DNA from: Sphaerotilus natans
GTDB lineage: Bacteria; Pseudomonadota; Gammaproteobacteria; Burkholderiales; Burkholderiaceae_C
Direction of reading: 5' to 3'
NCBI RefSeq assembly: GCF_900156335.1
Contig: NZ_FTMZ01000005.1
Coordinates: forward strand, 124,001-188,000
Length of the DNA stretch: 64,000 nucleotides
Shown: one piece after another, positions 6,419-16,611 of the stretch
How positions within the stretch are numbered: the first letter of the stretch is position 1
Layout: each line of letters opens with the position of its first letter
Program-made: the position numbers and the translations under genes
Notes under the pieces: generated by a model
The model's database searches: none
What the model saw: only the letters and a program-made list of their open reading frames with translations
Told to the model about the DNA's origin: nothing

Positions 6419-7249
6419 TCAGCTGGCGACATGTTTGGCAATGGCGCTCCACATGTGAAGCGGGTTGGAGTACATCGGAAAGTGACCACAAGACGGCACC
6501 TCCTCGACCCGGACCCGAGCCTCACGTAGGCGAGGCAGATAGCTCAACGTTGCGTTCTGTTCGCCATGCATGAACATCCTCGGCATAGGAAGGCTCAGGA
6601 ACTTGTCCATCAGATCGCCGTGATCCGACAGCTCAACCATCGAGCGAAAAATCCCGGCTACTGCGCCCGTACGTACCTTGTGGCGCAGGCTGGCGGCGTA
6701 CAAGGCACTTGCATACGCCGGAGAGCCGTGGGTGCGCAGGATGAATTCGTCAAAGAAGTGCTGCGGATCATCGGCAGGGTAGTCAATGATCTGCCGGCTC
6801 AGAAAGCAGTCTTCGGGTGCGACGTTGCCTTCGATGTCGACGAAGCTCAGCACCCGTTCAGGCATGGCGTGGGCCAGCAACAAGGCCGTCAGGCCTCCCA
6901 TGGAATGGCCGACCAGGTGGAACTCGGTCACTCCGAAATGAGCCAACAGGGCTCGCGCCGTGTCGACGAGAAACGGGATGGAGACCCGTCCCAGGTCACC
7001 ACAATGGGTCTCTCCGCAGCCAGGCGCATCCCAGGCCAGAAAAGCACGTCCGCTGAACTCGGCGTGACGGACGATGTCCGCGTAGTCTTCCTTGGTTGAG
7101 CCAAACCCGTGCAGGAAGACCACGGGCGACAAGGGCCCAGTGCGATGGATGGTGGCCACATCCAGCGCCACGCCCTGGACGACCAGGGGGACGCGGGCGT
7201 GGTCGAACCCGGCCGTGCCTGGCGAGACTTGGGCGATGGTCGTGCTCAT
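6419..7249 (-). CDS. Alpha/beta hydrolase
   Basis: A 276-residue soluble hydrolase and last gene of the RraA operon. It has the oxyanion-side motif FLHGFGSTKEDY, the nucleophile elbow VGHSMGG and the C-terminal catalytic His in SCGHFPMYSNP, with a lid insertion between. The ATG at 7249 overlaps the aminotransferase stop by 4 nt and is preferred; an ATG at 7267 is possible. Substrate unknown. The context suggests hydrolysis of an ester, amide or C-C bond in the pathway fed by the aminotransferase and aldolase-like proteins. Confidence 0.82.
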   Translation of the reverse strand: MSTTIAQVSPGTAGFDHARVPLVVQGVALDVATIHRTGPLSPVVFLHGFGSTKEDYADIVRHAEFSGRAFLAWDAPGCGETHCGDLGRVSIPFLVDTARALLAHFGVTEFHLVGHSMGGLTALLLAHAMPERVLSFVDIEGNVAPEDCFLSRQIIDYPADDPQHFFDEFILRTHGSPAYASALYAASLRHKVRTGAVAGIFRSMVELSDHGDLMDKFLSLPMPRMFMHGEQNATLSYLPRLREARVRVEEVPSCGHFPMYSNPLHMWSAIAKHVAS

Positions 7250-8469
7250 GTTGTCGTGGACTCGCAAAAGTGTCGTATCGCGTTGCAGGCCTGGGCCAGG
7301 GACGCATCGTCCAAGGCATAGGCAATGCGGAGATATGGGCCCAGACCAAAGGCGCTGCCTTGCATCACGGCCACCTGGGCTTCATCGAGCAGCGCCAATG
7401 CCACATCCTCGTCCGTGGCCAGCAGCCGGCCGCCCGCGCTGGTTCGGCCGATCAGACCTTCGCAGGAGGCGAAGGCATAGAACGCCCCGGCCGCGCGGGC
7501 ACAACGCAAGCCGAAGGCACGGTTCAAGCCCTGCACCACCGCATCGCGCCGCCGCTCGAAGACCTCGCGGGTGTTTCGAACGAAATCCTGCGGTCCCGCG
7601 AGGGCAGCCAGGGCCGCATGCTGCGAAATGCTGCAAGCGCCTGAGGTCTGCTGACCCTGCAGTTTCTCCATGGCCTCCAGCAACCACTGCGGTCCGGTGG
7701 CGAAGCCGATGCGCCACCCCGTCATCGCGTACGCCTTCGAGACGCCATTCATCGTCAGGGTGCGCCCCGCCAAGCGCGGCTCCACCTGAGCCATCGTGGC
7801 GAAGGTCGCGCCGGTGAACACCAGGTGCTCGTAAATGTCATCCGACAGCACCAAGACCTCTGGATGCGCCAGGAGCACCTCGGCCAGCGCCAGCAACTCC
7901 GCTGCCGAATACACCGCGCCAGTCGGGTTCGACGGCGAGTTGAGGATCAACCACCGCGTGCGAGGAGTGATCGCCGCCGACAGCGCCTCGGGCGTGAGCT
8001 TGAAGCCAGTCGCCTCCGGGCAAGGCACGGTCACCGCCCGAGCCCCGCAGAGCTGGACCATCTCGGGGTAGCTGACCCAATAGGGCGCGGGGATGATCAC
8101 TTCATCCCCGGCATTCAGTGTGGCCGCCAAGGCGTTGTAGATGACCTGCTTGCCACCGCTGCAGACGATGGTCGCCTGCCAGCGGGTCGGCATGCCGTTT
8201 TCCTCCTGGAACTTGCGTGCAACCGCCTCGCGCAGCGGACGCATGCCTGCCACCTGCGTGTACCGGGTATGACCCGCACGGATGGCCGCAATGGCCGCCT
8301 CCTGGACATGCACCGGGGTGTCGAAGTCAGGCTCGCCGGCGCTCAGCGAGATGATTCTGGCGCCCGCTGCCTTTCGCTCGGCCACGCGGTCGATCATGCG
8401 GTAGGTGGCTGAAGGCTGGGCGGCGGCCAGGTGCTGATTCAGCGGGAGGAGAGGCGAAACGGCGCTCAT
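7246..8469 (-). CDS. Class I/II pyridoxal-phosphate aminotransferase (AspC-like)
   Basis: A 407-residue PLP enzyme that moves an amino group between an amino acid and a 2-oxo acid. Visible are SLSAGEPDFDTP, the NSPSNPTGAVYS loop, the lysine motif MNGVSKAYAMTGWRIGFATG carrying the Schiff-base Lys, and YLRIAYALD near the end with the carboxylate-binding Arg. It starts with an ATG overlapping the preceding RraA-like gene by 4 nt and overlaps the hydrolase by 4 nt. Family members accept aspartate, aromatic or other dicarboxylic substrates. The neighbours suggest a gamma-substituted glutamate or similar, which is inference. Confidence 0.9.
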   Translation of the reverse strand: MSAVSPLLPLNQHLAAAQPSATYRMIDRVAERKAAGARIISLSAGEPDFDTPVHVQEAAIAAIRAGHTRYTQVAGMRPLREAVARKFQEENGMPTRWQATIVCSGGKQVIYNALAATLNAGDEVIIPAPYWVSYPEMVQLCGARAVTVPCPEATGFKLTPEALSAAITPRTRWLILNSPSNPTGAVYSAAELLALAEVLLAHPEVLVLSDDIYEHLVFTGATFATMAQVEPRLAGRTLTMNGVSKAYAMTGWRIGFATGPQWLLEAMEKLQGQQTSGACSISQHAALAALAGPQDFVRNTREVFERRRDAVVQGLNRAFGLRCARAAGAFYAFASCEGLIGRTSAGGRLLATDEDVALALLDEAQVAVMQGSAFGLGPYLRIAYALDDASLAQACNAIRHFCESTTT

Positions 8470-9092
8470 GCCTGCTCCCGCCACGCGGCCAGCCCCAGCA
8501 AATCGACGGTACGGGTGCCTTCTGTCAAGCGGCGCATAAACTCGGCTTCCTTGTCTGCGCGGATCTGCGCGGCAGACATGACGCGAGCGACATCGGCCAT
8601 GGGCACCACCACCACGCCGTCGTCGTCCGCCACCACCAGGTCGCCCACGCTCACCGGAACGCCAGTGATCTGGATGGATTGACCGACCGAGGGCACACTG
8701 GCCTTGATCGTGCCGCGAACCGAGATGCCGCGGGCAAACACCGGAAAGCCCCAGCGGGCCAAGGCAGCCACATCGCGCACGCCTCCGTCGATCACCAGGC
8801 CGGTGATGCCGGCGGCCTCGGCCGCCACCGTCAGCACTTCGCCCCAATAGCCGGCCACGAAGTTTTCGGCCGTGACCACCAGCACGCTGCCACGCGGGGC
8901 GCGCTCCACCGCCAGGTGGATGGCCAGGTTGTCACCTGGGGCGCAATGCACCGGGTAGGCCGGGCCAGCCACCGCCGCGCCGGCCCAGACGGGACGAATC
9001 GCGGGGTCCACCGAACAGGGCAGGCACGAGGCCTCGTACAGGGTGGAGGTGCCCAGCTTCAGGGCTTGCTCATGGAGGTTCGACGGGCTCAT
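8466..9092 (-). CDS. RraA/HMG-aldolase-like protein, paralogue 3
   Basis: A 208-residue protein of the RraA-like fold (4-hydroxy-4-methyl-2-oxoglutarate aldolase/RNase E inhibitor superfamily). The superfamily signature is present as GLVIDGGVRDVAALARWGFP, with a Glu exactly 20 residues before the Arg-Asp pair (E-X20-R-D), where the other two paralogues have Asp. It ends with a helical tail. Third gene of the operon, overlapping its neighbours by 4 nt on both sides. It is the most divergent of the three paralogues here, and its activity (aldolase, decarboxylase or structural subunit) cannot be told. Confidence 0.85.
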   Translation of the reverse strand: MSPSNLHEQALKLGTSTLYEASCLPCSVDPAIRPVWAGAAVAGPAYPVHCAPGDNLAIHLAVERAPRGSVLVVTAENFVAGYWGEVLTVAAEAAGITGLVIDGGVRDVAALARWGFPVFARGISVRGTIKASVPSVGQSIQITGVPVSVGDLVVADDDGVVVVPMADVARVMSAAQIRADKEAEFMRRLTEGTRTVDLLGLAAWREQA

Positions 9093-9754
9093 GCGGACCT
9101 TGTTTGCAGTTGGTGGTAGCCCTGCTGGGCACGGGCTTGTCCGAGCGTCATGCCTGAGGCGATGAGGGCACGAATGCGCGACTCCGCCGCTTCGATCCGG
9201 TGTGCGGTCTCTGCGACTTCGCGGGCACGCCCGCGCGGGACCACCACCACGCCGTTGGCATCGGCCACCACGATGTCCCGCGCCACGACCCGTGCCGTGC
9301 CGATGGACACCGGCCCGTTGACAGCCACCACCTCGACGCGGTCCTTGCCCGTGCGCATGAAGCGTCCGCGCGTGTAGAGGCGATAGCCGTCGCCCAGGGC
9401 CTTGCCCACGTCGCGGCACACGCCGTCGATGACCGTGCCCGCGATGCCGCGCAGGCCGGCGTACTGGGTCATGATGTCGCCCCAGACCGTGCAGTCCGTG
9501 CGGCCGCCGTTGTCGATGACGACCACGTCACCGGGCGCCACGTCGTCGATGAAGTCGCCGACGGTGCCAGCCGGCTGGCCGCAGCTGACATATTGGACGG
9601 TGAATGCCGGGCCCACGACCGTGCCGGCGTAGTTGTCCAACGGCGCAATGCCCAGACATTGGCCGGGGATTCCTAGCTTGTCCATGGCGTCCGAAACGCC
9701 TGGGGTGTCCAGACCCTCGAAGAGGGCGACCAGTTCCTTGTCCTGCGCGTTCAT
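9089..9754 (-). CDS. RraA/HMG-aldolase-like protein, paralogue 2
   Basis: A 221-residue member of the same family. It contains DTPGVSDAMDKLG at the start and DIMTQYAGLRGIAGTVIDG followed by CRD, giving the D-X20-R-D arrangement expected for the metal and pyruvate-enolate site of HMG/CHA aldolases. DNGGRTDCTVWGD lies just before. Starts at an ATG overlapping the upstream paralogue by 4 nt. Probably cleaves a 4-hydroxy-2-oxo acid to pyruvate plus a second carbonyl compound, by family knowledge. Confidence 0.87.
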   Translation of the reverse strand: MNAQDKELVALFEGLDTPGVSDAMDKLGIPGQCLGIAPLDNYAGTVVGPAFTVQYVSCGQPAGTVGDFIDDVAPGDVVVIDNGGRTDCTVWGDIMTQYAGLRGIAGTVIDGVCRDVGKALGDGYRLYTRGRFMRTGKDRVEVVAVNGPVSIGTARVVARDIVVADANGVVVVPRGRAREVAETAHRIEAAESRIRALIASGMTLGQARAQQGYHQLQTRSA

Positions 9755-10446
9755 GCCTGTGCTCCCGCCTTGATGGCTTCGAATTCCTTGTCGTGCATCA
9801 CGGCCTCCACCGAGCGGCCGGAGCGCACGGCCTGCACCATGCCGTCCTGACGCCGGGCAATGCGCTCGGCCAGATCCAGAACCTCGGCGATCCGCTGCGC
9901 CGGCACGAAGACCGTGCCGCAGCGGTCGGCGATCACGAAATCACCTTCCGATACCGTCACACCCGCCACCTGGATGGGCTGGCCGGCGTCGAGCTGGACC
10001 ACGCGGTTGCGCGCGCTGACCATGGTTGCGCCTCGGCCATAGACCGGGTAGCCGATCTCTTCGTTGGCCTCGATGTCCCGGCTGAAGCCGTCGATGACGG
10101 TGCCACGAACCCCCTTGACCTTGGCCGCATTGGCCAGGATGTCGCCCCAGCATGAAATGCCATCCATGCCACCCGCGATCACCAGGATGCGGTCATCGGT
10201 GTCGATGGCGGCGATCACCGGCGAGATCAGGTGCACCGTGGGGGCGCTGCCCGTCTTGGGCCCGAGTTGCACGGTGCTGGCGCGCCCGACGATGCGGGAG
10301 CAGGACCAGAGCGGGCGCAGACCCACGGTGGCGCCAGGCAGGGCGAGGAAGTCGAGCGCATCGGAGACCGTGGTGGTGTCCAGGCGCGCCAGGCGCTCAA
10401 GGAACGATGTGGGCATGGCGGTGCAAGCAGTGGTGTGTGACGCCAC
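9751..10446 (-). CDS. RraA/HMG-aldolase-like protein, paralogue 1
   Basis: First gene of the operon, 231 residues when started at the GTG at 10446; an ATG at 10416 (MPTSFLERLARLDTTTV) is a credible alternative since neither has a strong ribosome-binding site. It contains DTTTVSDALDFLALPG, GGMDGISCWGDILANAAK and GTVIDGFSRDIEANEE, giving D-X20-R-D. It lies across 73 nt from a divergent LysR gene with an operator-like palindrome between them. Likely a class II pyruvate aldolase; the paralogues could form hetero-oligomers, which is speculation. Confidence 0.86.
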   Translation of the reverse strand: MASHTTACTAMPTSFLERLARLDTTTVSDALDFLALPGATVGLRPLWSCSRIVGRASTVQLGPKTGSAPTVHLISPVIAAIDTDDRILVIAGGMDGISCWGDILANAAKVKGVRGTVIDGFSRDIEANEEIGYPVYGRGATMVSARNRVVQLDAGQPIQVAGVTVSEGDFVIADRCGTVFVPAQRIAEVLDLAERIARRQDGMVQAVRSGRSVEAVMHDKEFEAIKAGAQA

Positions 10447-10490: not shown

Positions 10491-10519
10491 CATCCATACG
10501 CCAAACCTATGGGGCAGAC

Positions 10520-11449
10520 ATGATCAACTTCCGCCTGATGCGCCACCTGTGGTTGTTCCTGGCCGTGGCCGAGGAGCAGAACTTCAGTCGCGCGGCAAAG
10601 CGGCTGGGCATGTCTCAACCTCCGCTGACCGAGCAGATCCAGGTGCTGGAGCAGGCCCTGAAGGCACAGCTTTTTGTGCGCTCCCGACTGGGAGCGCAGC
10701 TCACGCCGGTGGGCCACGCGATCCTGCCGGCGGTGCGCAAGTTCGTGCAGCAGATGGAGCAGCTGGAGTTGGCGGTACGCGAAGCCACCTCGGGCCAGAC
10801 CGGCATGCTGACCATCGGCGCCATCTCCTCGGCCATGCTGGAGGTGTTGCCGGCCTACCTGGATCGATTGCGTGCGACCCAGCCCCGGTTGACGATCTCG
10901 GTGCACGAGATCGACAGCGTCGATGCCGTACCCGCGCTGCGCTCAGGTGACGTGGACCTGGCTTTTGCGCGGCTGGAGGGTGACCTGGGAGCCGATATCC
11001 AGACGATGGCGATGTCTCAGGATAGCCTGGTCGTCGCCCTGCCTGCAGGCCACCGACTTGCAGGCCAGCGTCGCATCGACATGGCGATGCTGGCGGATGA
11101 GGCGTTTGTGATGTTCAGCCGCCGGGTCAGTCCCGTCTATTTCGACCGCATCATCGCCCTCTGTCAGGCCAGTGGCTTCTCGCCTCGAATCTTGCACGAG
11201 GTTCGCAGCGTGACGACGCAGGTGGCTTCGGTCGGGTGCGGGCAAGGCATCGGCCTGGTCCCGGAGTCCTTACGCCGAATGGCACCGAACAACGTGTTGT
11301 TCAAGCCGTTGCTGCAGAAGGTCGAGGTGGTGACGACGGCGGCGGCGTGGCGCAGTGACCTGCTCAACCCGACGCTCACCCTGGCGTTGGCGGAACTGGA
11401 ACCCGCATGCAATCGAAGGCCTCGGAAAACCCGGAGATCTCCCGCGTGA
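10520..11449 (+). CDS. LysR-family regulator of the RraA operon
   Basis: A 309-residue LysR protein. The HTH reads FLAVAEEQNFSRAAKRLG then MSQPPLTEQIQVLEQ, followed by a LysR substrate-binding domain (GMLTIGAISSAMLEVLPAYL onward). The ATG at 10520 starts MINFRLMRHLWLF and fits the family; upstream in-frame codons run through the intergenic operator. Divergent from the three-RraA operon, which it most likely activates in response to a pathway intermediate. The basic C-terminal tail (RRPRKTRRSPA) is unremarkable. Confidence 0.9.
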   Translation: MINFRLMRHLWLFLAVAEEQNFSRAAKRLGMSQPPLTEQIQVLEQALKAQLFVRSRLGAQLTPVGHAILPAVRKFVQQMEQLELAVREATSGQTGMLTIGAISSAMLEVLPAYLDRLRATQPRLTISVHEIDSVDAVPALRSGDVDLAFARLEGDLGADIQTMAMSQDSLVVALPAGHRLAGQRRIDMAMLADEAFVMFSRRVSPVYFDRIIALCQASGFSPRILHEVRSVTTQVASVGCGQGIGLVPESLRRMAPNNVLFKPLLQKVEVVTTAAAWRSDLLNPTLTLALAELEPACNRRPRKTRRSPA

Positions 11450-11461
11450 AAATGAAGCCCC

Positions 11462-12726
11462 ATGACATCCGCCCGCCTCCTCGCCCTGCCCGCACTGCTG
11501 CTGCCGCTGCTCGCCGTGGCACAGATGCCCCCCGACGCTGCGCCCGACGCGGTGCTGCAGTCCTGCCTCTCCGCGCTGCAGCCCGCGGCCCGCACGGCCG
11601 GCGTCGCGTCCGAGACCTGGCGGCAGCACACCGCGGACCTGGCCGCCCTGCCCGAGGTGCTGGACAAGCTCGACCAGCAGCCCGAGTTCCGCACGCCGAT
11701 CTGGGACTACCTGGCAGCGCTGGTCGATGACGAGCGCGCGCGCAGGGCCGGGCCATGCTGGAGCAGCACCGTCCGGTGCTGGACGAGGTGGCGCAGCGCC
11801 ACGGGGTCGACGCGGCCACCGTGGTCGCCGTCTGGGGCGTGGAGAGCAACTTCGGCCAGACCTTCGGCAGCTACCCGCTGGTGCAGTCGCTGGCCACGCT
11901 GTCGTGCCAGGGGCGGCGCCAGGGCTTCTTCCGCGGCGAGCTGTTCGCGGCGCTGCGCATCCTGCAGGCCGGTCATGTCCCGCCGGAGCGGCTGCGCGGC
12001 TCCTGGGCCGGCGCCTTCGGCCACACCCAGTTCATGCCAACCACCTACGAGCGCCTGGCGGTCGACTTCGACGGCGACGGCCGCCGCGACCTGATCGACA
12101 GCGTGCCCGACGCGCTGGCCTCGACCGCCAATTTCTTGGCCCGCGCGGGCTGGAAGGACGGCCTGCCCTGGGGCTTCGAGGTGCGGCTGCCGGAAGGCTT
12201 CTCCACCGAGGGCCAGGGCCGCAAGCTGCGCCAGCCGATGGCACGCTGGCGCGACCTGGGCCTGCGCCGCGCCGACGGCGCGCCGCTGCCAGAGCTCGAT
12301 GCGCCCGCCGGCCTGATGACGCCCGCCGGCCCCCAGGGCCCGGCCTTCCTGGTGACGAAGAACTTCGACGCGATCTACAGCTACAACGCCGCCGAGAGCT
12401 ACGGCCTGGCGATCGCGCACCTGGCCGACCGGCTGCGCGGCGCCGGCCCCTTCGTGACGCCGTGGCCGACCGACGACGCCGGCCTGTCGCGCGCCGAACG
12501 CCGCGAGCTGCAGCAGCTGCTGGCCGCACGCGGCCATGACATCGGCGCGATCGACGGCCTGCTGGGCGAGCGCAGCCGCGCGGCCATCCGCGCCGAGCGC
12601 GGCCGCCTGTTCGGCGAGCGCGCCCCGGACGGCCGCGCCGGCCAGAAGCTGCTGCGCACGCTGCGCGCCGAGGCACTGCTGGCGGCGCCAGAAAGCCCCC
12701 CGGCAGAGGCGCCGATCAGCCGGTGA
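11462..12726 (+). pseudogene. MltB-type lytic transglycosylase, frameshifted
   Basis: Periplasmic murein-cleaving enzyme (SLT_2/MltB family) split into two frames. Part one (11462 to about 11740) encodes a signal peptide, MTSARLLALPALLLPLLAVA, and the N-terminal helices up to WDYLAALVDDERA. Part two, open from about 11745, continues AMLEQHRPVLDEVAQRHG, has the catalytic Glu in VWGVESNFGQT and FGHTQFMPTTYERLAVDFDG, and ends with a peptidoglycan-binding-like repeat (GHDIGAIDGLLGERSRAAIR). The join needs one added base near a GC dinucleotide run at 11734-11743. It may be a real lesion, a phase-variable site or a sequencing error. The 3' end overlaps matB by 11 nt. Confidence 0.8.
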
Positions 12727-14278
12727 ACAGCGCCCGGTGCGCGTCGCGCAGCAGGTTCTTCTGCACCTTGCCCATCGCGTTGCGCGGCAGCTCGGCCACC
12801 ACGAAGGCGCGCTTGGGCACCTTGTAGCCGGCGATCTGCGTCTTGAGCTGCACCACCAGCGCATCGGCATCGAGCGTGGCGCCCACTTTGGGCACGATCA
12901 GCGCGATCACGCCCTCGCCGAAGTCAGGGTGCGGCACGCCGACCACCGCCGACTCGGCCACGCCGGGCATGTCGTTGAGCCAGCCCTCGATCTCGGCCGG
13001 GTAGACGTTGTAGCCGCCGGTAATGATCAGGTCCTTGCTGCGGCCGACGATGGTGAGGTAGCCCTGCGCGTCGAAGCGGCCGACATCGCCGGTCCTGAAC
13101 CAGCGCTCACCCGACGCATCGGCGGTGAACTCCTCGGCGGTCTTCTCCGGCATGCGCCAGTAGCCGCCGAAGACGTTCGGGCCGCGCACCTGCACATGGC
13201 CGATCTCGTCGGCGGCCACCGCGGCGCCGGCGTCGTCGACCACGCGCACGCCCACGCCCGGCAGGGCCGGCCCGACCGTGCCGCCCAGCCGCCGAGGTTC
13301 ATGCTCGCCGGCCTCGGCGCGGCAGGGGTTGGAGGTCAGCATGATCGTCTCGCTCATGCCGTAGCGCTCCAGGATGGTGTGGCCGGTGCGCGCCTGCCAG
13401 TCGCGGAAGGTCTCGATCAGCAGCGGCGCCGAGCCGGAGATGAACAGGCGCATGTTGCGGCAGGCCTCGCGCGTCAGCCCGACCTCCTGCAGCAGCCGCA
13501 CGTAGAGCGTCGGCACGCCCATGAAGACGCTGGCACGCGGCAGGCGCTCGACCACCGCCTTCGGATCGAACTTCGACAGCCACAGCATCTTCGAGCCGTT
13601 GAGCAGCGCGCCGTGGCTGGCGACGAACAGGCCGTGGACATGGAAGATCGGCAGCGCGTGGATCAGCACGTCGCCTTCTCTCCAGTCCCAGAAGTCCTTG
13701 AGCATCTGCGCGTTGGACAGCAGGTTGCCGTGGCTGAGCATCGCGCCCTTGCTGCGGCCGGTGGTGCCGGAGGTGTAGAGGATCGCGGCCAGGTCGTCGG
13801 CCGACTTCGGCGCGATCTCGTGGGTGTCGGGGAAATGCGCGGCGCGGTCGAGCAGCGTGCCGGTGCGGTCGTCGTTGAGCGTGAAGACATGCGCCACGCC
13901 CTTCTGGAAGGCGAGCTGGCTGATCCACGGGAAGTTCCGGCCCGCGCAGACCACCACCGCGGGCTCGGCGTTGCCGATGAAGTAGTCCAGCTCGGCCGCC
14001 TGATAGGCGGTGTTGAGCGGCAGGTAGACCAGCCCCGCGCGCAGCGTCGCCAGATAGAGCATCAGCGCCTCGACCGACTTCTCGGTGTGCGCGGCCACCC
14101 GGCTGCCGGCCGGGATCTCCAGCGACTGCAGCAGGTTGGCCAGCATCGCGGTGGCGCGGTCGAGGTCGCGCCAGGAATAATCCAGGCCGCTGTCGGTCTC
14201 GATCGCGATCGCGTCGAGGTCGGCGGGAAAGGCGGCGCGCAGGGCGGCGAAGAGGTTGGGGTTGGCGGCGGGGCTCAT
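12716..14278 (-). CDS. matB: Malonyl-CoA synthetase (acyl-CoA ligase, MatB type)
   Basis: ANL-superfamily ligase, 520 residues, that activates malonate to malonyl-CoA with ATP. Visible are the P-loop-like YTSGTTGRSKGAMLSHGN, PIFHVHGLFVA, the A5 motif ERYGMSETIML, the A7 hinge WFRTGDVGRFD and the C-terminal catalytic Lys in PRNAMGKVQKN. The HVHGLFVA and ERYGMSE segments are characteristic of MatB-like enzymes. Downstream of a crotonase gene on the same strand, with which it probably forms an operon. Specificity for malonate over methylmalonate cannot be settled here. Confidence 0.85.
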   Translation of the reverse strand: MSPAANPNLFAALRAAFPADLDAIAIETDSGLDYSWRDLDRATAMLANLLQSLEIPAGSRVAAHTEKSVEALMLYLATLRAGLVYLPLNTAYQAAELDYFIGNAEPAVVVCAGRNFPWISQLAFQKGVAHVFTLNDDRTGTLLDRAAHFPDTHEIAPKSADDLAAILYTSGTTGRSKGAMLSHGNLLSNAQMLKDFWDWREGDVLIHALPIFHVHGLFVASHGALLNGSKMLWLSKFDPKAVVERLPRASVFMGVPTLYVRLLQEVGLTREACRNMRLFISGSAPLLIETFRDWQARTGHTILERYGMSETIMLTSNPCRAEAGEHEPRRLGGTVGPALPGVGVRVVDDAGAAVAADEIGHVQVRGPNVFGGYWRMPEKTAEEFTADASGERWFRTGDVGRFDAQGYLTIVGRSKDLIITGGYNVYPAEIEGWLNDMPGVAESAVVGVPHPDFGEGVIALIVPKVGATLDADALVVQLKTQIAGYKVPKRAFVVAELPRNAMGKVQKNLLRDAHRALFTG

Positions 14279-14292
14279 GGGGCGGCGGGCGT

Positions 14293-14318
14293 GGATCCCC
14301 GCCTGCGCGGGGATGACG
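14293..14318. repeat. REP-like palindrome, isolated copy
   Basis: The core ATCCCCGCCTGCGCGGGGAT forms an 8-bp stem with a 4-nt loop and is followed by GACGG. This is the pattern of the dispersed CCCGC...GCGGG-ATGACG elements seen again at 45741-45817 and 56914-56940. It lies between the crotonase and matB genes. Confidence 0.7.
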
Positions 14319-14365
14319 GAGGTGATGGGGGAATCAGGCGCCAGAAGACTCAGGGGCCAGAAAAC

Positions 14366-15175
14366 TCAGGCGCCGGTGAACTTCGGGGGGCGCTTCTCGA
14401 TGAAGGCGGCGATGCCCTCGCGGTGGTCGGGGCCGCTGGCGTAGGCGGCGAGCTGCTGGCGCTGCGCCTCGGAGAAGCAGAACTGCGGCGCGACCAGGCG
14501 TAGCGCCTGCTTGTTCAGGCGCGCGGCACGCGGGGCGCCGGCGGCGATGCGCCGCGCGGTGGCCTCGGCCTCCGGTGCGACCTCCTCGTCGGGCATCACC
14601 CGCTGCACCAGGCCGCGCTGCAGCGCGACCTCGGCCTCCAGCAGCCGCGCCTCCAGCAGGATCTCGGCGGCGGTGGCCAGCCCGGCCACCCGCGCCACGC
14701 CCGCGAGCTCGTCGATCGCCATCGGGAAGCCCAGCCGGGCGATCGGCGCGCCGAAGCGGCTCGAGCGCCCGGCGATGCGGATGTCGCACTGGCAGGCGAT
14801 CTCCAGCCCGCCGCCGACGCAGGCGCGCTCGATCTGCGCCACCAGCGGGATGTCGCAGCGGTACATCGCGTCGAGCGCCGGGGCGACGATGTTCTCGTGG
14901 AAGTCGCGCACCGTCTCCGGCGCGAAGCGGAAGGCCGGGAACTCCTCGATGTCGCCGCCGGAGACGAAGGTGCCGCCCTCGCCGCGCACGATCACGCAGC
15001 GCAGGTCGGGCTCGCGCGCGTCCAGGCCCTCGAAGATCTGGCGCAGCTCGCGCCACATCGCGACGTTGACGGCATTGAGCTTGCCCGGGTTGGACAGGGT
15101 GAGCACCGCCACGCCGGACAGCGTGGCGTGGGGTTCGAGGCGGACGGCGGACGCGGCCAGGGCCGGGGCATTCAT
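14366..15175 (-). CDS. Enoyl-CoA hydratase/isomerase-family (crotonase) protein
   Basis: A 269-residue crotonase-fold protein acting on an acyl-CoA. The oxyanion-hole motif GGDIEEFPAF and the ACVGGGLEIACQCDIRIAG segment are present, so the first catalytic Glu position is kept. In the segment aligned with GQPEILLG of true hydratases it reads GAPIARLG, so the second catalytic Glu is replaced by Ile. It may therefore be a decarboxylase, isomerase or thioesterase-like member rather than a hydratase. It lies 87 nt upstream of matB on the same strand, suggesting a malonyl- or methylmalonyl-CoA substrate. Confidence 0.82.
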   Translation of the reverse strand: MNAPALAASAVRLEPHATLSGVAVLTLSNPGKLNAVNVAMWRELRQIFEGLDAREPDLRCVIVRGEGGTFVSGGDIEEFPAFRFAPETVRDFHENIVAPALDAMYRCDIPLVAQIERACVGGGLEIACQCDIRIAGRSSRFGAPIARLGFPMAIDELAGVARVAGLATAAEILLEARLLEAEVALQRGLVQRVMPDEEVAPEAEATARRIAAGAPRAARLNKQALRLVAPQFCFSEAQRQQLAAYASGPDHREGIAAFIEKRPPKFTGA

Positions 15176-15277
15176 GCGGGAGACTCTCCAGGACAGGACA
15201 GATGCGCGGGCATCGGGGGCGACGATGCTAGGCCGGCTCGCTGACCGCAGGCTTGAGCGCCGGGCGGGCTGGCCGCC

Positions 15278-16021
15278 TCACTTCAGCGCATCCCACAGCA
15301 GCTTGACCCCGGTCAGGAACATGCCCCACTGCACCAGCCGGTAGAACCAGCGCGGCGAGACATGCTTCGTCGCCTGGATGCCGATCAGCACGCCGGCGGC
15401 GGCCACCGGCATCAGCACCGCCGAGGTGGCGAGCTGCCCGCCGTCGATCAGGCCGAGCAGGCCGTAGGGCCCCCACTTGGCAGCATTGATCGCGGCAAAG
15501 AACACCGCCGAGGTGCCGGCGTAGGCCAGCGGCGCCATGTGGCGCGGCAGCAGCGCCATCACGATCGGCGGGCCGCCGCTGTGCGCGATGAAGCTGGTGA
15601 AGCCGGAGGTCAGCGCCAGCGCGCCGCTGGCCGCAGCGCTGGGCGGCGCGGCATCGGCCCGCGGCGGAAACCTCAGGTTCCAGGCCAGGAAGATCAGCGT
15701 CACCAGGCCGGTCAGCCCGCCCACGAGCTGCGGCGACAGCACGCCGAAGCCGATCCAGCCCAGCACGATGCCGATCAGGCCGGCGGGCAGCAGCTGGCGC
15801 AGCACCGTCCAGTCGGCATGGCGGCGCAGCGTCACCAGGCCCATGACATCGGACAGGCACAGCAGCGGCAGCACCAGCGCGGCGGCCTGCGGCACGCTCA
15901 CGCTCATCGCCAGCAGCGGCGTGGCCAGCGCGCCGATGCCGGAGGCGAAGCCCGACTTGGAGATGCCCACCAGCAGCGCCGCCGGCACCGCGACGGCGTA
16001 GAACGCCGGATCGGTGATCAC
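15278..16021 (-). CDS. TauE/SafE-family membrane permease
   Basis: A 247-residue integral membrane protein with about eight hydrophobic segments and the family motifs GISKSGFASGIGALATPLLA and SGFTSFIAHSGGPPIVMALL. Family members move sulfite, sulfonates or other small organic anions. It starts at a GTG that overlaps the nitroreductase stop by 4 nt, so the two are translationally coupled. Substrate is unknown; the nearby malonate genes are the only hint. Confidence 0.85.
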   Translation of the reverse strand: MITDPAFYAVAVPAALLVGISKSGFASGIGALATPLLAMSVSVPQAAALVLPLLCLSDVMGLVTLRRHADWTVLRQLLPAGLIGIVLGWIGFGVLSPQLVGGLTGLVTLIFLAWNLRFPPRADAAPPSAAASGALALTSGFTSFIAHSGGPPIVMALLPRHMAPLAYAGTSAVFFAAINAAKWGPYGLLGLIDGGQLATSAVLMPVAAAGVLIGIQATKHVSPRWFYRLVQWGMFLTGVKLLWDALK

Positions 16022-16611
16022 AGGATGCGGCAGGCGTCGTCGAAGTCCAGGCGGGCCGCGCGCGGGCGCAGGCCGGCGGGGTCGCCGTGGCCGAGGTTGC
16101 ACACCAGCAGCGTCTTCACCGCGGTGCCGCCCCAGAAGGCCGCGTCGACGCCAGCGGCGTCGAAGCCGGCCATCGGACCGCAGTCCAGGCCCAGCGAGCG
16201 CGCCGCCAGGATGAAGTAGCCGGTCTGCAGCGTGGCGTTGAAGCGCGCCATGTGCTCGACCTTGGCCGGCTGGCCCTCGAAGGCGGCGGCCGGCACATGC
16301 GGCGCCAGCCGACCCATCGTCGCGGGGAAGTCGAGGTCGGCGCCCAGCACCGCCACCACCGGCGCGGCGGCGGTCTTGGCGCGGTTGCCCTCGGCCATCA
16401 GCGGCAGCAGCGCTGAGCGCGCCTCGGCCGAGACGACGAAGCGCACCCGCAGCGGGCCGCAGTTCATCGCCGTCGGCGCCCATTTCAGGCGGTCGTGCAG
16501 CGCGCGCAGCAGCTCGGGCGCGACCGGGCGGTCCTGCCAGGCGTTGTGGGTGCGCGCCTCCGAAAAGAGCTGCGCGGAGGTGAGCGTGATCGTTTCGGGC
16601 GAGGTCGTCAT
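16018..16611 (-). CDS. Nitroreductase-family protein (RutE/HadB-like)
   Basis: FMN-dependent NAD(P)H oxidoreductase of 197 residues. The pattern FSEARTHNAWQDRPVAPELL, LKWAPTAMNCGPLRVRFV and the C-terminal LLVCNLGHGD is that of RutE (3-hydroxypropionate/malonic semialdehyde reductase family, 196 residues in E. coli). The ATG at 16611 starts MTTSPETITL; longer starts run into the divergent gene's leader. Coupled to a TauE/SafE permease. Malonic semialdehyde is the family-based guess for its substrate. Confidence 0.82.
   Translation of the reverse strand: MTTSPETITLTSAQLFSEARTHNAWQDRPVAPELLRALHDRLKWAPTAMNCGPLRVRFVVSAEARSALLPLMAEGNRAKTAAAPVVAVLGADLDFPATMGRLAPHVPAAAFEGQPAKVEHMARFNATLQTGYFILAARSLGLDCGPMAGFDAAGVDAAFWGGTAVKTLLVCNLGHGDPAGLRPRAARLDFDDACRIL

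Follow-up and report, generated by a model that had tools for sequence, protein, structure and literature searches.

We analyzed a stretch of 64,000 nucleotides from Sphaerotilus natans (assembly GCF_900156335.1, contig NZ_FTMZ01000005.1, positions 124,001 to 188,000), hereafter the window, in which five genes form a single minus-strand unit at 6419–10416. Its first three genes encode RraA-like proteins, i.e., R1 (9751–10416, 221 amino acids), R2 (9089–9754, 221 amino acids) and R3 (8466–9092, 208 amino acids). They are followed by AT, a class I aminotransferase of the Sinorhizobium meliloti AatA type (7246–8469, 407 amino acids), and HYD, an alpha/beta hydrolase (6419–7249, 276 amino acids). 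All four junctions (R1/R2, R2/R3, R3/AT and AT/HYD) are overlaps of 4 bp, as an earlier note on this DNA had stated, each with the sequence ATGA. The note had extended the unit to 10446; the end at 6419 holds, but R1 starts at the ATG at 10416, from which its orthologues align, and 10446 is an alternative upstream GTG. A LysR-family regulator gene (10520–11449, plus strand) is divergent from R1, and the intergenic region contains a putative LysR-box-like site, ATACGCCAAACCTAT (other strand ATAGGTTTGGCGTAT), at 10496–10510. The guanine-cytosine content at 6–11.5 kb of the window is somewhat below that further right.

The three RraA-like proteins belong to Pfam family PF03737 (R1 107.1, R2 110.8 and R3 130.6 bits, cut-off 24.5), AT to the class I/II aminotransferase family and HYD to the alpha/beta hydrolase family. 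Pfam and the gene positions thus bear out the three RraA-fold proteins, the alpha/beta hydrolase and the facing LysR gene of the earlier description. The source genome holds five RraA-like genes in total, two of them outside the operon. Such genes are annotated as RNase regulators, as 'RraA family' or, mistakenly, as menaquinone methyltransferases.

Five aligned R1 sequences served as the query for a scan of a genome collection, which gave 159 relatives, and the best 80 loci were analyzed; R1 was the search bait and is hence present at all of them by design. Presence was scored by tblastn at identity thresholds of 60% for R1, R2 and AT, 55% for R3, 50% for HYD and 40% for LysR, and some absences are contig ends or copies under threshold. 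R2 was found at 66 loci, R3 at 54, AT at 55, HYD at 46 and LysR at 66. R3 was always accompanied by R2, i.e., all three RraAs occur together at 54 of the 80 loci. All six genes are present at 39 loci, in 34 of these in the order of the window. The ATGA overlap recurs at 31 of 66 R1/R2 junctions, 27 of 54 R2/R3 junctions and 35 of 45 R3/AT junctions, and at only 2 of 39 AT/HYD junctions. Since other genomes repeat the gene order and some of the overlaps, the operon arrangement is more than chance. A search for this neighborhood elsewhere had been named beforehand as a check, with its absence as a ground for giving up the proposed function; the neighborhood is conserved. Moreover, pairwise divergence across the 39 complete loci was correlated among R1, R2, R3 and AT (r 0.89–0.92, calculated without a housekeeping control); the values for HYD were depressed by one row pair with zero identity, probably a fragment.

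Most hosts of the 80 loci are Betaproteobacteria, with further copies in Sinorhizobium, Methylobacterium, Acinetobacter and Pseudomonas. Among 399 genomes of the window's order, 50 had an R1-like match (E ≤ 1e-20), and five, the source genome included, reached at least 73% identity. The R1 profile (E ≤ 1e-70) matched 3 of 200 genomes of the family, again with the source genome included, and neither of the two congeners listed; among 369 genomes of the class, the only match was the window's own. R1 was also found on 14 of 72,556 plasmid records, six of the 14 being predicted conjugative. Because the module is sporadic across genomes and present on plasmids, we infer that it is mobile. For a reading as an acquired island, the flanking genes gave no usable synteny with the two R1-less congeners, and a TruD query had no match in either of them and was hence uninformative on an empty site.

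In the divergent region, the pattern ATAG-N7-[GC]TAT, picked after inspection of the window, was seen near the start of LysR in 25 of the 65 regions examined, the window included; 26 have a match anywhere, and simple shuffles give 0.8%. It occurs in most short regions, is absent from several equally short ones, and is not found at that place in longer regions. From the layout and the recurring LysR-box-like site, the LysR protein would be expected to control the divergent operon.

R1, R2 and R3 fall into separate deep groups in a tree of 78 proteins. The R2 group is well supported (100/99) and includes the uncharacterized RraA-like protein of PDB entry 3k4i as well as the R2 proteins of distant triads in three genomes (G069, G102 and G294), whose RraAs share 37–57% identity with those of the window. 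The R1 (95/79) and R3 (89/74) groups are without firm support, and the distant R1 proteins of loci L040 and L041 stand outside the R1 group. The tree program warned of long branches, among them 3noj, 3k4i and the R3 proteins of L040 and L042. A recent tandem triplication of the RraA genes is ruled out, as each of the three has a lineage of its own with distant counterparts. Two of the three distant triads adjoin other catabolic genes, i.e., acyl-CoA (CoA, coenzyme A) ligase and enoyl-CoA hydratase genes at L041, and genes for a LigB-like protein, a CoA-transferase and a thiolase at L042; at L040, none of the three neighbors checked is catabolic.

We read the active sites on the numbering of PDB entry 3noj, the 4-hydroxy-4-methyl-2-oxoglutarate/4-carboxy-4-hydroxy-2-oxoadipate (HMG/CHA) aldolase, which is the closest solved relative of R3. 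The set comprised 235 gene-called RraA proteins of 185–260 amino acids (others were dropped; four loci entered twice), with groups of 80 R1, 70 R2 and 49 R3 proteins. According to Mazurkewich in 2014, the HMG/CHA aldolases reportedly carry a D-X20-R-D or G-X20-R-D-X2-E/D motif for metal binding and catalysis. R3 equals 3noj at 10 of the 13 positions looked at, with Asn71, His75, Gly101, Arg123, Asp124, Gly144, Thr145, Lys147, Arg195 and Glu199 kept in 49 of 49 proteins; the three differences are Glu at position 102 (Asp in 3noj), Ala at 127 (Thr in 3noj) and a non-polar residue or Gln at 40 (Arg in 3noj). The Asp102/Arg123/Asp124 positions of D-X20-R-D are intact in all R1 (80/80) and R2 (70/70) proteins, as is Gly101, and R3 combines Glu102 with Arg123 and Asp124 (49/49). 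R1 further keeps an aligned His75 (80/80) and carries Gln in place of the metal-site Glu199 in 79 of 80 proteins; this Gln is also kept in 14 R1 proteins standing alone or without close R2 and R3. R2 keeps Glu199 (70/70) and has Gly at position 75. According to PMC5065237, Arg123 is essential, Asp124 and Glu199 bind metal, one or the other of two such motifs is present in most homologues, and most RraA homologues are considered probable class II pyruvate aldolases. No protein reached the NCBIfam cut-offs for HMG/CHA aldolases: for PRK09262 (cut-off 179), R3 scored 174.8, R1 71.4 and R2 70.0 bits, and for ligK_PcmE (cut-off 304.5) R3 scored 164.1, R1 71.8 and R2 64.8 bits. R2 matched 3k4i with 161 bits. 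The predicted structure of R1 was poor (mean pLDDT, the predicted local distance difference test score, 60.0) and was not used.

AT is a class I aminotransferase by its Pfam score (PF00155, 258.2 bits, cut-off 19.7) together with Lys245, the pyridoxal 5'-phosphate (PLP) lysine, and Arg381. The earlier note had called it AspC-like; its class was right, but its closest solved structures are S. meliloti AatA and AatB (PDB 6f77 and 6f35), of which AT is a close homologue with the catalytic residues, yet bound into an operon with RraA and hydrolase partners. With 516 bits it stays under the cut-off of 617 for the aspartate transaminase family PRK06107. Lys245, the carboxylate-binding Arg381 and Lys107 are invariant in all 57 gene-called AT proteins longer than 380 amino acids; Lys107 we take to be Lys109 of Thermus aspartate aminotransferase, a binder of acidic side chains. 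HYD is an alpha/beta hydrolase by fold, nucleophile and histidine, Ser116 and His256 being kept in 46 of 46 relatives, and candidates for the acid of the triad vary among these. Its predicted model was good (pLDDT 90.8), and the best 50 of 1877 Foldseek matches were alpha/beta hydrolases of many functions, with no single one named.

Genes near copies in other genomes served as substrate clues. Nine of the 80 loci have genes for 5-oxoprolinase subunits, confirmed by family, in the flanks retrieved, as do 3 of 11 plasmid stretches opened, i.e., those of B. cenocepacia, Bosea and P. aeruginosa. The subunit PxpA occurs near 7 of the 80 loci with 0.28 expected, an expectation based on the 60 PxpA copies counted across 38 genomes (260.3 Mb), roughly half of those behind the 80 loci; owing to shared ancestry this Poisson comparison is too strong, yet positions and orientations differ between genera. 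On all three Rhizobium plasmids opened, a glutamate-dehydrogenase-type gene, scoring below equivalog cut-offs, stands between AT and HYD. An amino-acid permease gene and an amino-acid binding protein were each found near 4 of the 80 loci. Twelve loci contain a thiamine pyrophosphate (TPP) decarboxylase pair resembling sulfopyruvate decarboxylase, ten of them with an aldehyde dehydrogenase. In some Burkholderia an asparagine permease gene follows HYD. The Bosea plasmid has, in the place of AT, a different gene annotated as a class I aminotransferase, which the AT query does not match.

Other arrangements around these genes were also seen. Cupriavidus necator A5-1 has three R1 copies (L069, L100 and L107) in three settings, i.e., R1-R2-R3, aconitase X with R1-R2-R3, and R1-AT-HYD. 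At L045, L052, L060, L077 and L121, a second recurrent arrangement comprises LysR, an R2-type RraA, a TctC binding protein and an R3-type RraA, the TctC protein being checked at L052 and assigned at the other loci by cluster or length. A conserved lipoprotein-like protein of about 395 amino acids lies between aconitase X or TctC and R1 (L100, 6747–7937; L077, 6722–7906), and neither Pfam nor NCBIfam matched the L100 copy at the thresholds chosen. R1-only operons at L076, L084, L096, L104, L106, L119 and L124 each contain an alpha/beta hydrolase, and part of them TctC proteins, a short-chain dehydrogenase/reductase, acyl-CoA synthetase, acyl-CoA dehydrogenase and a TPP enzyme (families checked on L124). 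Within the window, 12716–16611 (minus strand) encodes a malonyl-CoA synthase (827.9 bits, cut-off 558), an enoyl-CoA hydratase and a malonic semialdehyde reductase (243.7 bits, cut-off 152), apparently a malonate or 3-hydroxypropionate cluster. A link of the operon to this cluster was considered, as the distant L041 triad likewise has an AMP-ligase and a hydratase as neighbors, but these share only 32% and 31% identity with the synthase and hydratase of the window.

We propose, with a probability of roughly 0.4, that the operon serves to degrade a glutamate-like amino acid that is substituted, probably with a 4-hydroxy group, and would be cleaved to pyruvate and an oxo acid. Gene layout, conservation, residues and neighbors are the observations from which we infer each of its reactions. 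The substrate may reach some hosts as a lactam (a pyroglutamate) or a lactone, the ring of which could be opened by the accessory 5-oxoprolinase or by HYD. AT would pass the amino group to an acceptor and yield a substituted 2-oxoglutarate, a chemistry suggested by homology for a substrate that is presumed. Judged by its active-site residues, R3 would then catalyze a metal-dependent retro-aldol cleavage via the pyruvate enolate to pyruvate and a second oxo acid. R1 and R2 may be relatives that act on other isomers or catalyze later steps, and the module may need all three RraAs. The second oxo acid could be consumed by the TPP decarboxylase and aldehyde dehydrogenase encoded near some copies. 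An aminotransferase acting ahead of an aldolase had already been suggested in the earlier note, with a 4-hydroxy-4-methylglutamate-like compound as an example of a possible substrate; this order is consistent with the retention of most aldolase active-site residues and of the catalytic residues and Lys107 of AT. A glutamate-like substrate is suggested by the 5-oxoprolinase genes and the glutamate-dehydrogenase-type gene near copies elsewhere. The interpretation given in that note is supported in part. Aconitase X genes are found at 8 of the 80 loci, and 7 of these 8 lack AT. AT is hence not the sole possible feeder, and the hydro-lyase aconitase X may replace it.

Two observations bear on the need for all three RraAs. 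R3 at 55% identity or more is absent from 26 of the 80 loci. No R2 match at E ≤ 1e-30 was found in six of ten R1-bearing genomes tested, i.e., in one genome with R1-AT-HYD and in five metagenome-assembled genomes with R1-only loci. Further observations weigh against the proposal itself. The Gln199 of R1 replaces a metal ligand of the aldolase, and R3 has Glu at position 102, where published motifs have Asp or Gly. Accessory genes accompany the operon at a minority of loci, none adjoins the operon of the window, and the only PxpA gene of the source genome lies on another contig. Neither the surroundings of the 80 loci nor the 8 other plasmid stretches contain the glutamate-dehydrogenase-type gene, which also fits the recycling of glutamate after any transamination. 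Moreover, in several genomes R1-only operons contain genes for a tricarboxylate-type binding protein, a hydrolase and acyl-CoA enzymes; R1 is hence not bound to amino-acid metabolism. Finally, PMC8563752 describes FlDet of Flavobacterium, an RraA-family dehydratase/decarboxylase that acts on a 2-keto-3-deoxy acid in an alginate pathway.

Four other explanations were weighed. Starting from aspartate, 3-methylaspartate, 3-hydroxyaspartate or a sulfonate analogue, AT might form oxaloacetate or a substituted form of it, which the RraAs would decarboxylate to pyruvate or its substituted counterpart. The proximity of AT to the S. meliloti aspartate aminotransferases A and B and to PRK06107, if below its cut-off, would agree with this, as would the asparagine permease gene after HYD in some Burkholderia and the sulfopyruvate-decarboxylase-like genes near 12 of the 80 loci. 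Moreover, oxaloacetate decarboxylation is included in the names of the NCBIfam aldolase families, and the oxaloacetate reaction is mentioned in PMC5065237. However, beta-decarboxylation leaves the 5-oxoprolinase linkage and the glutamate-dehydrogenase-type gene unexplained, R3 retains the aldolase pocket residues Asn71, His75 and Lys147, and three enzymes for one decarboxylation would be odd. We regard it as unlikely. To a similar degree improbable is another RraA chemistry, e.g., a FlDet-like dehydration and decarboxylation of a 2-keto-3-deoxy-glucarate-type acid, with three successive enzymes in one pathway. Its precedent is FlDet, likened here at the level of the RraA family; the three lineages differ at active-site positions, and R1-R2 adjoin the aconitase X genes mentioned above. 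Yet R3 equals the aldolase at most positions looked at, and as R2 and R3 are missing from some copies, the RraAs are not obligatory successive steps everywhere.

RraA-family proteins are reported to be trimers, and the three RraAs might assemble into a single hetero-oligomer in which each subunit helps to complete the active site of another. The joint recurrence of three overlapping genes from separate lineages would fit this arrangement, and R1 is without the metal-site Glu199 that R2 and R3 keep. However, Gln199 is also kept in the 14 R1 proteins standing alone or without close R2 and R3, which together with the R2-less genomes weakens an obligatory mixed complex. R3 is, moreover, often absent, and we consider the hetero-oligomer quite improbable. 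That the three proteins are RNase E regulators, i.e., RraA in the strict sense, would agree with their fold family. Their scores for PRK09372 (R1 29.2, R2 37.1 and R3 53.0 bits) are far under the cut-off of 136, they share an operon with an aminotransferase and a hydrolase, and they keep the catalytic Arg and Asp; such a role hence has hardly any likelihood.

The cleavage of a glutamate-like amino acid that we propose would employ enzymes of known kinds, with the RraAs, as far as sequence comparison tells, as distant members of one aldolase family. The HMG/CHA aldolases LigK, GalC and ProA act in the protocatechuate 4,5-cleavage and gallate pathways. They share the fold family with all three proteins, most of the positions examined with R3, and D-X20-R-D with R1 and R2. 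In contrast to 3noj, R3 has Glu for Asp102, and it scores just under the PRK09262 and far under the ligK_PcmE cut-off. Unlike the operons of those pathways, the one described here has an aminotransferase and no aromatic-ring genes. R2 is of the lineage of 3k4i, itself on a long branch. FlDet belongs to an alginate pathway. The enzymatic synthesis of monatin uses the same pair of enzyme types, an HMG-type aldolase and an aminotransferase, to connect pyruvate and an oxo acid with a 4-hydroxy-4-substituted glutamate; it is a synthesis, in contrast to the natural three-RraA operon. One open-access library, which leaves out most subscription journals, was searched, and the titles, abstracts and passages listed gave no account of such an operon.

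More tentatively still, the operon may represent a horizontally spread pathway that degrades 4-hydroxy-4-substituted glutamates as well as the pyroglutamate lactams of these. Three RraAs that separated long ago would divide the aldol chemistry, and aconitase X would be an alternative feeder, although we hold this wider version to be rather doubtful. Each RraA may handle a different isomer or a different step, or the three may act as a mixed complex. By joining three RraAs with an aminotransferase, the compact, mobile operon offers a direct way to find their substrates. If the proposal is true, it would describe a degradation route for non-protein glutamate analogues and give a reason why one family is kept in three versions. 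In bacteria of soils and plants, the wider version would, if true, also give a catabolic role to many RraA-like genes that are so far unassigned.

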